NCBI GenBank assembly: GCA_949297775.1
Contig: CASFTM010000011.1
Location: 27,521 to 74,874 of the forward strand
DNA length: 47,354 bases
Source of the DNA: an uncultured bacterium
GTDB lineage: Bacteria > Elusimicrobiota > Elusimicrobia > Elusimicrobiales > Elusimicrobiaceae
Direction of reading: 5' to 3'
Part shown: positions 6,914 through 37,311 of the stretch, piece by piece
Layout: every line of letters starts with the position of its first letter
Position numbering within the stretch: position 1 is the stretch's first letter
The notes under the pieces: model-generated
Databases searched by the model: none
Seen by the model: only the letters and a program-made list of their open reading frames with translations
What the model was told of the DNA's origin: nothing
Program-made: the position numbers and the translations under genes

Positions 6914-7462
6914 TTATTTTTTGTAGTTGGAATAGGAAACATTATTCCCACCAACCATATTATTCTGAAAGGTATATCCCAAATTTTTACATAGGGAATT
7001 CTGCAACGGGGAATCGGTTATAGCTCGGCAGGTGTAAGTCCCATCGGGACGGTAGGCCAGCGCAAAACCGGATAAATTATGCATATGAGAGGCACTTTCC
7101 CCCGGGAAAACTTCTATATACCGGCCTGTAGATTCCGGATAAATAATATCCAAATGCCAGTTGTTGCAAAGATAAGCGGGGTTTTCCCTCTCTTCATCCA
7201 TCTTACACGGCAGAGAAATATCCAAATCCGATAATTTGGAAGCCATTTCCCCATTCGCCATTCGGTACACCTGCTGGGCCTTGACGATAGCGTCCAACAT
7301 GGTTTGCGCTTCGGCTACCCGGCTTTTAGCCACCGCCATTTGGTACTGCGGCAAGGCCACAGCCGCCAGAATACCAATGATTAAAACAACCACTAACAGC
7401 TCTATTAGCGTAAATCCCGCGTTTTTCCCCGCCGGGAGCGATTTTTGATAAATTTTGTTCAT
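6914..7462 (-). CDS. type IV pilin-like protein with longer leader
   Basis: A 182-residue protein. A leader of about 15 residues (MNKIYQKSLPAGKNAG) precedes [16 protein letters not shown], longer than in the two neighbouring prepilins but still ending in the G|F cut site with Glu5. The head has Cys pairs (CKMDEERENPAYLC, CRAI, LCKN). No Shine-Dalgarno is visible. Instead a -35/-10 pair ends six bases before ATG 7462, implying a leaderless message. A TTG codon two codons upstream could also start the frame. Confidence 0.88.
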   Translation of the reverse strand: MNKIYQKSLPAGKNAGFTLIELLVVVLIIGILAAVALPQYQMAVAKSRVAEAQTMLDAIVKAQQVYRMANGEMASKLSDLDISLPCKMDEERENPAYLCNNWHLDIIYPESTGRYIEVFPGESASHMHNLSGFALAYRPDGTYTCRAITDSPLQNSLCKNLGYTFQNNMVGGNNVSYSNYKK

Positions 7463-7468
7463 AGCCAA

Positions 7469-7497
7469 AATTTATCAAAAAAAAAAAAACAAATCAA
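7469..7497 (-). promoter_or_regulatory. leaderless promoter of the 6914-7462 prepilin gene
   Basis: Minus-strand TTGATT (7497-7492), a 17-bp spacer with a 13-base T-run, and TAAATT (7474-7469), followed by six bases and the ATG at 7462. Slippage in the homopolymer could change spacing and so expression. Confidence 0.5.
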
Positions 7498-7743
7498 CCC
7501 CCTTGCCGGGGGCAGGCACTCTATGCCCGTTAACACGATTAGTTTAGGCCACACTGTTTCCGCACTGTCGTGCTCTTGAGTAACGGCCCAGTGCCTGGGC
7601 TCCCAACGCCACACCCGCTGACACGGTTGGCGGCCCCTCTTGCCGGGGATAGGGCCAAAGCTTGGCCTCCCGGCTCGTTATCCGTTAGCACGACGGGGAA
7701 GGCACGCTGTACCGGCCTGACCACCCCTTGCGTAACAGTCCTT
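7498..7743. other. GC-rich intergenic region with many hairpins, no gene recognised
   Basis: About 245 bases between a prepilin gene and the ankyrin gene. It contains perfect small hairpins (GCCCAG/CTGGGC, GGCCAA/TTGGCC, GGGCA/TGCCC), a distant inverted pair (GTCGTGCT near 7567 and AGCACGAC near 7687) and near-direct repeats (CTTGCCGGGG twice, GTTARCACGA twice). The open minus-strand frame across it has no recognisable protein pattern. It could be a structured RNA or a small repeat element. Confidence 0.35.
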
Positions 7744-34598: not shown

Positions 34599-35369
34599 CT
34601 ATTTATGATTTTTATCTATAGTTTTGGAATTTTTTGTAGTCTCTACTTGAGTCTCGCCTTCATTTCTTGATTGATCCATATTAATTTTAGAAGTCGGAAC
34701 ATTTTGTATATAATTGATATGCGCTGCCCCTTCTTTTTTACACGAAGAGGAATCATCCGGTCCAATAAGCAGTGCTATAAAACCACACAAAACAGCCAGG
34801 ATAAAAGGAATACTATAGCAGAAATTACCTGTTTTCCAAAGATGTTTAATCAAGGAAATACACCGTGATTTACCAGGCTCATAGCAAATTGGTTCTAGTG
34901 GTTTGTGTTCGTGATGAAGCAAATGGTGAAAAACATATAAAAATATCATCAATCCCGTTAAAAACGACATTAACACAAAGACCGCATGAAAAACCGTTTC
35001 AAACTGTAACACAATAGAAACAGACACCGATATAAAAGTAAACAATGTAGCAAATGTTCCAAAGAGCTCCAAGTTATTTTTTGTTTGCTGTTTTAAATCG
35101 GAGGCTATTTTCTCTATTTGTTGATTAGCATCTATTATACTTTCTTGAATAGACGTCAATGATTCTTCAAAGCCTTTTACCTTATCCACTTCCCTTTGCA
35201 AAGCAAGGAATTTATCTTCCAATTCCTTAAACCAAGCGTCAGAATAGGTTTTCTGTTGATCAGATAGTTTTTGTGAAGAAGAATCAGGAACAGACATGTT
35301 TACTGGAATTCCAGTAGAACTTTGAGACAAAGGTGAATGTAATTTTTCAGAAGAATTATCGTTTTCCAT
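34599..35369 (-). CDS. membrane protein with coiled coil in the Panacea module
   Basis: A 256-residue protein. Residues 45-95 are a predicted coiled coil (DKFLALQREVDKVKGFEESL). Three hydrophobic segments follow (about 101-117, 122-146 and 182-203) separated by a short HHLLHHEH loop, and the tail is polar. It overlaps the gene before it by 14 bases. The base composition is visibly more AT-rich than the neighbouring late genes. In an antitoxin-linked operon, a membrane protein could be the toxic effector; this is inference. Confidence 0.6.
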   Translation of the reverse strand: MENDNSSEKLHSPLSQSSTGIPVNMSVPDSSSQKLSDQQKTYSDAWFKELEDKFLALQREVDKVKGFEESLTSIQESIIDANQQIEKIASDLKQQTKNNLELFGTFATLFTFISVSVSIVLQFETVFHAVFVLMSFLTGLMIFLYVFHHLLHHEHKPLEPICYEPGKSRCISLIKHLWKTGNFCYSIPFILAVLCGFIALLIGPDDSSSCKKEGAAHINYIQNVPTSKINMDQSRNEGETQVETTKNSKTIDKNHK

Positions 35370-35988
35370 ATAATTCCTCTCTAATGCTATTTAAAGAAAA
35401 TTTTCCAAGGGCTATGTTAATTAGTTTATCTAAATGCTCTTCATCTAAATAAGTCGGAAGAACCCCAGTATTCAAATCCCGCACACAAACATAAGGGAAC
35501 TCTTGGCTATTATTTTTTAGAATTTGTATATTATCATAAAGGGAAACGCCATTTTCATTTAATTTGTTTACATAAGCTATGGAATTCAAAGAAAAACTCT
35601 CTTCTGGTTTTAATAAAACAGCACTGAGAAAGCGGGACAATGTAATATTGCTACATACAAACTGTGCAACTAATCCAAGTCTTTTTAACTTATTTTGGAA
35701 ACAAGCTTTAAAAATGTCATAAATTAAAGACATCTTTTTTCCAAGGCTTTCCAATTCGTTACAAGAGAAGTCTATTCTTTGTCCATTTACTGCTATTTGC
35801 CACGGATCCACCTTGGCAGATATTAATGGAAAAGGGGTTGGAACACCTAAAGGGAATGTATTATTGAATTGAATGTTCCCTGCTTCGTGTTCACGTAAAA
35901 AATCTAACAAGTTAAACAATAATTCATTATCAATATTTTTTTCAGGGAAAAAAACAACCGAAAGAGCTTGATGTTGTAATATATCCAT
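35356..35988 (-). CDS. unknown protein in the Panacea module
   Basis: A 210-residue protein of mixed alpha/beta character (TPFPLISAKVDPWQIAVNGQ RIDF is one distinctive stretch). It lies one base after the Panacea-domain gene and overlaps the membrane protein gene, so all three are one transcript. AAGGAATTAAT precedes the ATG. I do not recognise the family. It may be a toxin, a sensor or a second antitoxin component. Confidence 0.6.
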   Translation of the reverse strand: MDILQHQALSVVFFPEKNIDNELLFNLLDFLREHEAGNIQFNNTFPLGVPTPFPLISAKVDPWQIAVNGQRIDFSCNELESLGKKMSLIYDIFKACFQNKLKRLGLVAQFVCSNITLSRFLSAVLLKPEESFSLNSIAYVNKLNENGVSLYDNIQILKNNSQEFPYVCVRDLNTGVLPTYLDEEHLDKLINIALGKFSLNSIREELYGKR

Positions 35989-35989
35989 A

Positions 35990-36445
35990 TTAATTCCTTG
36001 TCATATTTTCAATGTTTTTGCCTTGATAAAAGGCATAAATAGCATTCACATCAATGATATTATTGCTAGGAGTATTTGCTGCCAAATCGTTCCGAGCATT
36101 CTTCCAGGGAGCTTCTTGATGTGAATGCACCACGAGCCACAATGCGCCTTTTTTTCCATAGGCGGACAACACACGATCAATACAGCTTTTTTCTTTTTGT
36201 CCCAGATTTAACACACTTCCATACGGCAAATAATTAATAATTCTTTGTCCTTGATGAACATTATATAATTCTCTCACTACAGGGCCATTTACCCACGCCT
36301 CAATGTTTTCACGGAACAAACGCTCCCCATTGTTCCATGCCAAATACCAAGCTTGGCAATAATAAACTAGTTTTTGTAATTGTAAAGCAGAAACTTCATT
36401 GAGTTGCTGTAATATATATTGGGCTACATCAAAGACGCTTGCCAT
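35990..36445 (-). CDS. Panacea-domain (DUF4065, SocA-like) antitoxin
   Basis: A 151-residue protein with the full DUF4065/Panacea pattern: VAQYILQQLNEVSALQLQKLVYYCQAWYLAW, then EAWVNGPVVRELYNVHQGQR and the C-terminal VLSAYGKKGALWLVVHSHQE. Panacea domains act as antitoxins for very different toxins, usually encoded next to them (PanAT systems; SocA of Caulobacter). Here it heads a three-gene unit with its own promoter about 300 bases upstream. GGGGGGAG precedes the ATG. Confidence 0.85.
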   Translation of the reverse strand: MASVFDVAQYILQQLNEVSALQLQKLVYYCQAWYLAWNNGERLFRENIEAWVNGPVVRELYNVHQGQRIINYLPYGSVLNLGQKEKSCIDRVLSAYGKKGALWLVVHSHQEAPWKNARNDLAANTPSNNIIDVNAIYAFYQGKNIENMTRN

Positions 36446-36625
36446 ATCTCTCCCCCCTAATATGACGACAACAAAACCCGTTTACTTTTATCTTAAAGCA
36501 AGCGGGAGGAAACATTCTTGTAAGTAATTCTTTTCAAATCGGTACAGCGAAACACGCGAAAAACGAATTTTGCGTGACATTTACTATATATATTGTATTG
36601 GTTATAAGGGCTAAAATCAAGCCTT

Positions 36626-36685
36626 TTTGAGGTATTAAACAAGGACTTGGAAGGGTATTTGAGGTATTAAAAAGGAAATTGGAAG
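36626..36685. repeat. two imperfect 28-bp direct repeats
   Basis: Copies at 36626-36653 and 36658-36685 share TTTGAGGTATTAAA and TTGGAAG, with a few changes between. Period 32 bp, about three helical turns, which suits a protein operator. Two copies are too few for a CRISPR array and there is no spacer pattern. Confidence 0.5.
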
Positions 36686-36746
36686 AACCCAATGCACAAC
36701 CGTAGAAAACTACAATTTTAATGAAAGACAATTCCTTTTATTTTTT

Positions 36747-36776
36747 ATTATAACATTTTATTGTTAGTTTTGTCAA
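36747..36776 (-). promoter_or_regulatory. promoter of the Panacea module
   Basis: Minus-strand TTGACA (36776-36771), 18-bp spacer, TATAAT (36752-36747): consensus hexamers. Confidence 0.75.
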
Positions 36777-36786
36777 TAAAGTTAGT

Positions 36787-37068
36787 TTACTCAAACGCTA
36801 TTTCAAAAAAGCGAGATTCATTGGGGCACCCGAAAAATTGATACACCTCATTGGGCAAAGTCCACCCGTCCACCACGCGGATGTTTACGATTCGCCGCGT
36901 AATGGTGCGGGAAGAATAACCCCTGTGAAAAACGACCAAATCGCCCTTTTTCAAGCGAGATAAGCGTTTGCTCCACCCTTCAGTAAACCGGCGGTATTCG
37001 CACGTTTTCCGCCCAGATTCAATCTCATCAAACCAATGGTAAGTAAGTGTCAAATGTAGTCTATTCAC
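36787..37068 (-). CDS. ASCH-domain protein
   Basis: A 93-residue protein from GTG 37068 (AGGAGGG upstream, GTGA overlap with the preceding stop). LHLTLTYHWFDEIESGRKTC EYR, RLSRLKKGDLVVFHRG and TRRIVNIRV match the ASCH domain, a PUA-like fold thought to bind RNA. Phages often carry single ASCH proteins. The role in this phage is unknown. It ends the early minus-strand operon. Confidence 0.7.
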   Translation of the reverse strand: MNRLHLTLTYHWFDEIESGRKTCEYRRFTEGWSKRLSRLKKGDLVVFHRGYSSRTITRRIVNIRVVDGWTLPNEVYQFFGCPNESRFFEIAFE

Positions 37069-37244
37069 TTCTCCCTCCTGTTCCAAGCGGCTATGGCTTC
37101 GGCTTTTGACCGGTAAGTTTTTGAGTAATAACCACAGTTGTAGCAGTAAATGAAATAATCCTCATCAACCTCAAAGTTCGCTATACAATATCCGATATTT
37201 AGGGCTTCTCCACATTTTTTACAAGGTTTTAATTCGTTTTCCAT
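37065..37244 (-). CDS. Lar-like zinc-ribbon protein
   Basis: A 59-residue protein: LKPCKKCGEA, then IYCYNCGYYSKTYRS and EAIAAWNRRE. The two CxxC knuckles and the C-terminal EAIAAWNRR motif are typical of phage restriction-alleviation (Lar-like) small proteins. Lar of Rac prophage modulates type I restriction; activity here is only inferred. GGAGGCGG precedes ATG 37244. Confidence 0.75.
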   Translation of the reverse strand: MENELKPCKKCGEALNIGYCIANFEVDEDYFIYCYNCGYYSKTYRSKAEAIAAWNRREK

Positions 37245-37311
37245 TTTCCGCCTCCACAAATCTCGTTCCGAAAGCCATACGGCTCAACCAATCTCTAAAT
37301 TTTAGTTTCAT
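37219..37311 (-). CDS. possible 30-residue protein overlapping the Lar-like gene
   Basis: ATG 37311 with GGGGGAG upstream opens MKLKFRDWLSRMAFGTRFVE and ends after 30 residues, overlapping the next gene by 26 bases. It has the ribosome site and packing of the surrounding early genes but no recognisable domain. Confidence 0.4.
   Translation of the reverse strand: MKLKFRDWLSRMAFGTRFVEAENGKRIKTL

Follow-up and report, generated by a model that had tools for sequence, protein, structure and literature searches.

Organization of the three-gene unit

The DNA analysed here (the window, 47,354 nucleotides from an uncultured bacterium of the Elusimicrobiaceae) is a prophage; it encodes a repressor, an integrase, a terminase, a portal protein and head and tail proteins. 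A block of three genes is located between its early genes and its terminase genes, and the features of this block are listed in Table 1.

Table 1. Features of the three-gene unit in the window
Feature	Position	Strand	Description
Promoter TTGACA-18-TATAAT, extended -10 (TG ahead of -10)	36776-36747	minus	12/12 consensus
Leader inverted repeat CCCGCTTGCTTT-N6-AAAGTAAACGGG, then TTTTGTT	36477-36506	minus	Directly 5' of the panA ribosome-binding site; putative attenuator or operator
panA	35990-36445	minus	151-aa ORF; standalone Panacea protein; probable antitoxin and sensor
Gene 2	35356-35988	minus	210-aa ORF; soluble alpha/beta protein, family unassigned; probable third component
Gene 3	34599-35369	minus	256-aa ORF; coiled coil and about three membrane helices; probable toxin/effector
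Intrinsic terminator	34594-34577	minus	7-pair stem, 6 G-C pairs, then TTTTTT

The sequence-only reading had described the three genes as one block resembling a transcription unit with its own consensus promoter and terminator, and this is confirmed from position 36776 to 34577. The gap between panA and gene 2 is 1 nt, while gene 2 and gene 3 overlap by 14 nt. The GC content is 31-38% within the unit and 50-55% in the flanks, in agreement with the greater AT-richness reported earlier. A leader of about 300 nt, which was absent from the earlier description and bears a conserved inverted repeat, separates the promoter from panA. A scan of Rfam gave zero matches exceeding the gathering scores, and none of the three genes is covered by any PADLOC model. 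This is a real, functional-looking cargo unit, the function of which we infer.

The three proteins

PanA matches the Pfam family SocA_Panacea with an E-value of 1.3e-15 and 58.7 bits (cut-off 25.7) and phrog_1281 in PHROGs with an E-value of 1.6e-35, so that the earlier assignment of a clear Panacea (DUF4065) gene is borne out. The antitoxin of the SocAB system of Caulobacter has the same domain. However, PanA reaches 47.8 bits against the NCBIfam SocA equivalog, for which the cut-off is 190, and the partners of PanA differ from the single soluble toxin of SocAB. The solved structures that were searched include no credible relative of PanA, gene 2 or gene 3.

The product of gene 2 had been read as a 210-residue protein of unassigned family. 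The searches agree: there are zero matches up to E 1 in Pfam, NCBIfam and PADLOC, and the PHROGs matches are at chance level. The predicted model is an alpha/beta structure of two similar halves (pLDDT 69.5, pTM 0.67). The structure search proposed earlier for this protein was run with Foldseek and VIA-align and gave no clear relative; the best Z is 7.1, at which unrelated folds are tied. A relation to TIGR04255 was considered and rejected, with zero model match up to E 1 and an unstable profile similarity: the profile comparison gives a probability of 5.8%, which is above most column shuffles and varies with the rows chosen. At five loci (L076, L077, L078, L080 and L082) the TIGR04255 gene itself precedes a pair of small genes (about 134-149 and 93-99 aa), HicB/HicA-like by eye and unconfirmed by Pfam.

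In the model of gene 3 a 93-residue helix (residues 30-122) leads into membrane helices, and residues 126-153 and 183-201 are also helical; the confidence of the model is low beyond the coiled coil and membrane helices one and two. Three spans are found by hydropathy in each of its two relatives (loci L003 and L004, described below). The earlier description as a coiled-coil protein with three membrane spans therefore holds.

Recurrence of the unit

Conservation of the three-gene order in other genomes, on which the earlier proposal was said in part to depend, was looked for and found. The same order is present in two other phages, L003, which is the same DNA as genome G065 of the genus, and the metagenomic locus L004; it is thus retained in G000, G065 and L004. 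The genes are closely packed in all three loci, and gene 2 overlaps gene 3 in each. The unit occurs in 2 of the 66 genomes of the genus, and no Panacea gene of its type was found in the remaining 64 that were searched. Gene 2 and gene 3 were also searched for in phages, plasmids, viral contigs and 341 genomes of the phylum, and no additional locus like these emerged. In L004 the unit is followed on the opposite strand by an orphan gene for a 239-aa protein (6997-7716, minus strand), possibly more cargo.

PanA and gene 3 are homologous across the window, L003 and L004, with identities of 46-55% for PanA and 27-32% for gene 3, both well in excess of shuffled controls (z 27-30 for gene 3). Homology of gene 2 is limited to the window and L003 (E 2e-17); the gene 2 of L004 has no detectable homology to either of them (z 1.7 and -0.5). 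The weak conservation of gene 2 is compatible with its acting in recognition or as an adaptor, but does not show it.

In the PanA tree the three loci lie inside a supported clade of 12 (99/99), the other nine members of which carry single soluble partners. PanA partners have thus been exchanged. Viral contigs, phages and plasmids contain further closely related Panacea loci. Where the partner could be read, it is mostly one soluble protein of about 134-178 aa; two such partners weakly match MAG6450.

The window and L003 are mostly 90-100% identical over the ASCH-like gene, the promoter and the leader. Over the initial 180 nt of panA the identity falls to 68-75%, and over most of the unit beyond to about 40-57%. 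It is lower still in gapped stretches and higher (75%) in one stretch, where gene 3 encodes its first membrane span. Short homology resumes near the terminator. A recombination breakpoint inside panA was considered and rejected, since this profile places the breakpoint at the start of panA. The terminase genes past the unit differ between the window and L003, and the exchanged segment may therefore extend past the three genes.

The cargo slot and its leader repeat

The flanks of the unit were searched through the genus, which yielded loci L157-L163 in six genomes (G028, G005, G081, G001, G082 and G088). In this prophage family the interval from the ASCH-like gene to the terminase genes is a slot for cargo. 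The unit occupies this slot, and it is this placement that is new here. The contents of the slot vary among sister prophages and are often defence-like. The first prophage of G005 (L158) keeps the promoter and leader ahead of two genes, one for a DUF2335 membrane protein and one for a protein of 359 aa whose weak matches are nucleoside-deoxyribosyltransferase-like and TIR-like. The second (L159) has a methylase-like gene, then the promoter, the leader and two orphan proteins of 227 and 281 aa. In G001 (L161) the leader element precedes a near-copy of the 227-aa protein. A methylase-like gene, the promoter and a ClpP-like protease are found in G082 (L162), a methylase-like piece and a ClpP-like protease in G088 (L163), and a methylase-like gene alone in G028 (L157). 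The slot of G081 (L160) holds a DNA methylase and a Schlafen-AlbA protein, the latter of which matches PADLOC PDC-S50 with an E-value of 1e-49.

Several of these cargoes share the promoter and/or the leader inverted repeat. A 20-nt core of the promoter, at and just downstream of the -35 hexamer, is shared by the slots of G065, G005 (twice) and G082. The leader repeat, CTTGCTT-N-AAGTAAACGGG followed by a T-rich run, sits directly 5' of the coding region and is conserved in L003, L004, L158, L159 and L161. Within the genus it occurs in cargo slots only, at five sites in 4 of the 66 genomes (control, 0). Being found ahead of both Panacea and non-Panacea cargo, it belongs to the slot, and the idea of a PanA-specific operator was rejected on the same ground. 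Its folding z-scores are modest, and it could be either an attenuator or an operator. One further match to the leader pattern in a scan of the viral collection (L098) adjoins tail genes and was judged to be due to chance.

The terminase of the window is 98% identical to that of G028 and 96% identical to that of G005. Since sister prophages with so similar a terminase have other genes in the slot, the cargo is, on this comparison, dispensable to the phage. The different, often defence-like cargo behind the same promoter and/or leader repeat in sister prophages favours a prophage-encoded abortive-infection or toxin-antitoxin role for the three-gene unit. Defence-cargo hotspots at fixed prophage positions are known in other phage families. 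The slot resembles them in that defence-like cargo can be exchanged at a single position among related prophages, but the position and the host genus differ, and several cargoes here share a promoter and/or leader repeat. A slot of this kind in prophages of a small-genome bacterial genus also gives a route to further defence-like units by position.

Comparison with known Panacea systems

Among the known systems closest to the unit are the type II toxin-antitoxin systems of the PanAT type (Kurata et al. 2022, PMC8832971). In both, the Panacea antitoxin comes first in a short, mobile operon with an exchangeable partner; partner swapping is known for Panacea, and modules with membrane-depolarising toxins have already been described (PMC8832971). 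The unit differs in that PanA has two partner genes; in all three loci an orphan separates panA from the gene for the membrane protein. The PanAT survey made room for three-gene architectures (PMC8832971).

A close likeness is to the PanA-PanT pair of Helicobacter sp. 13S00482-2 (WP_095295401 / WP_095295403), which is likened here by its published description and not by sequence. PanT_Hel.sp., a toxin neutralised by PanA, is described as starting with a coiled coil in its N-terminal part and ending in membrane helices in its C-terminal part, and this layout is found in gene 3 (helix 30-122, then helices to residue 201, with which the hydropathy of the relatives agrees). PanT_Hel.sp. is toxic as a lone gene and depolarises membranes without large pores and with no rise in permeability to SYTOX Green (PMC8832971). 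A single number intervenes between the two accessions, which may mean that a gene lies between panA and panT there as well.

The unit had been put forward as a candidate new toxin-antitoxin or abortive-infection system. A Panacea-based cargo of that function is still the best reading, and the three-gene order is conserved. However, "new system" is too strong, because Panacea modules with depolarising toxins, including PanT_Hel.sp. with the same layout, were already known and three-gene forms had been provided for (PMC8832971). The unit looks like a three-gene variant of the PanAT type rather than a new kind of system. Panacea systems would thereby gain a three-gene form with a putative coiled-coil membrane effector.

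Proposed function and alternatives

The earlier reading had left the identity of the effector open. It can now be narrowed to gene 3 as the likeliest toxin, since gene 3 is the one partner of PanA kept in all three loci and shares its layout with PanT_Hel.sp. The constant partner indicated is thus the membrane protein and not the middle gene. The best explanation, to which we assign a probability of roughly 0.6, is a PanAT-type prophage cargo in which gene 3 is the toxin, PanA the antitoxin and gene 2 a soluble third component controlling the toxin; the toxicity, neutralisation, trigger and role of gene 2 are what we infer. Transcription would start at the unit's own promoter, probably in the lysogen. 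The coiled coil of gene 3 could oligomerise or dock partners, and its membrane helices, on release, would depolarise the inner membrane. PanA would bind and silence gene 3, probably directly, since PanA is a standalone Panacea protein and such proteins neutralise directly (PMC10440598). Control of the toxin may be aided by gene 2, whose product could be an adaptor, a chaperone or the subunit that recognises the trigger. A cell that is infected, or that has been cured, would be expected to stop growing. This would act as abortive infection against superinfecting phages or would stabilise the prophage.

A more elaborate form of this scheme is rather speculative. It takes gene 2 as a fast-changing recognition subunit that would couple an infection signal to the membrane toxin held by PanA, in a slot whose shared promoter and leader element would control interchangeable defence units.

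The placement of gene 2 directly after panA, the usual position of PanT and the place of the lone soluble partner in the closest Panacea relatives, could instead mean that gene 2 is a soluble enzyme toxin with PanA as its antitoxin, the membrane protein being an accessory such as a complex anchor or a phage-exclusion factor. This is unlikely, as gene 2 is without any toxin-family match and is not detectably conserved in L004, where gene 3 is. Slightly less probable again is a two-part effector, a soluble partner and a membrane pore that are toxic only together and are blocked as a pair by PanA. The overlap of the two genes in every locus would fit it, as would the neighbourhood of a gene-3-like protein in L009 beside a different small soluble protein, DUF6864; but PanT_Hel.sp. 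is toxic alone (PMC8832971), and the middle gene varies between the loci while gene 3 is constant. Finally, the prophage has a repressor, an integrase and structural genes, and the unit, which stands between its early genes and its terminase genes, might serve an ordinary phage function (lysis control or superinfection exclusion) with a Panacea gene only incidentally present. The other genes in the slot of sister prophages, and the unit's own promoter, terminator and base composition, make this very improbable. The PanAT-type cargo with gene 3 as its toxin is accordingly preferred.

Additional observations

The gene-3-like coiled-coil membrane protein of L009 (4538-5402) was the only relative found in one scan of genome contigs for gene 2 and gene 3. 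It follows the DUF6864 gene and lies between methylase-like and helicase-like genes, in a layout like that of type III restriction systems. This arrangement hints at a wider use of such membrane proteins in defence units.

Just upstream of the unit the window contains a Lar-like restriction-alleviation gene (37065-37259, Pfam E 2e-7). The near-identical 227-aa orphans of L159 (1629-2312) and L161 (3568-4251) start in an Ntn-hydrolase-like manner by eye, with zero Pfam match. On the other strand beside the slot of G082 (L162, 2416-3932) a caspase-domain protein is encoded (Pfam Peptidase_C14, E 1e-13). Its gene adjoins that of a 261-aa protein with three hydrophobic spans, and the two resemble a protease-effector pair.
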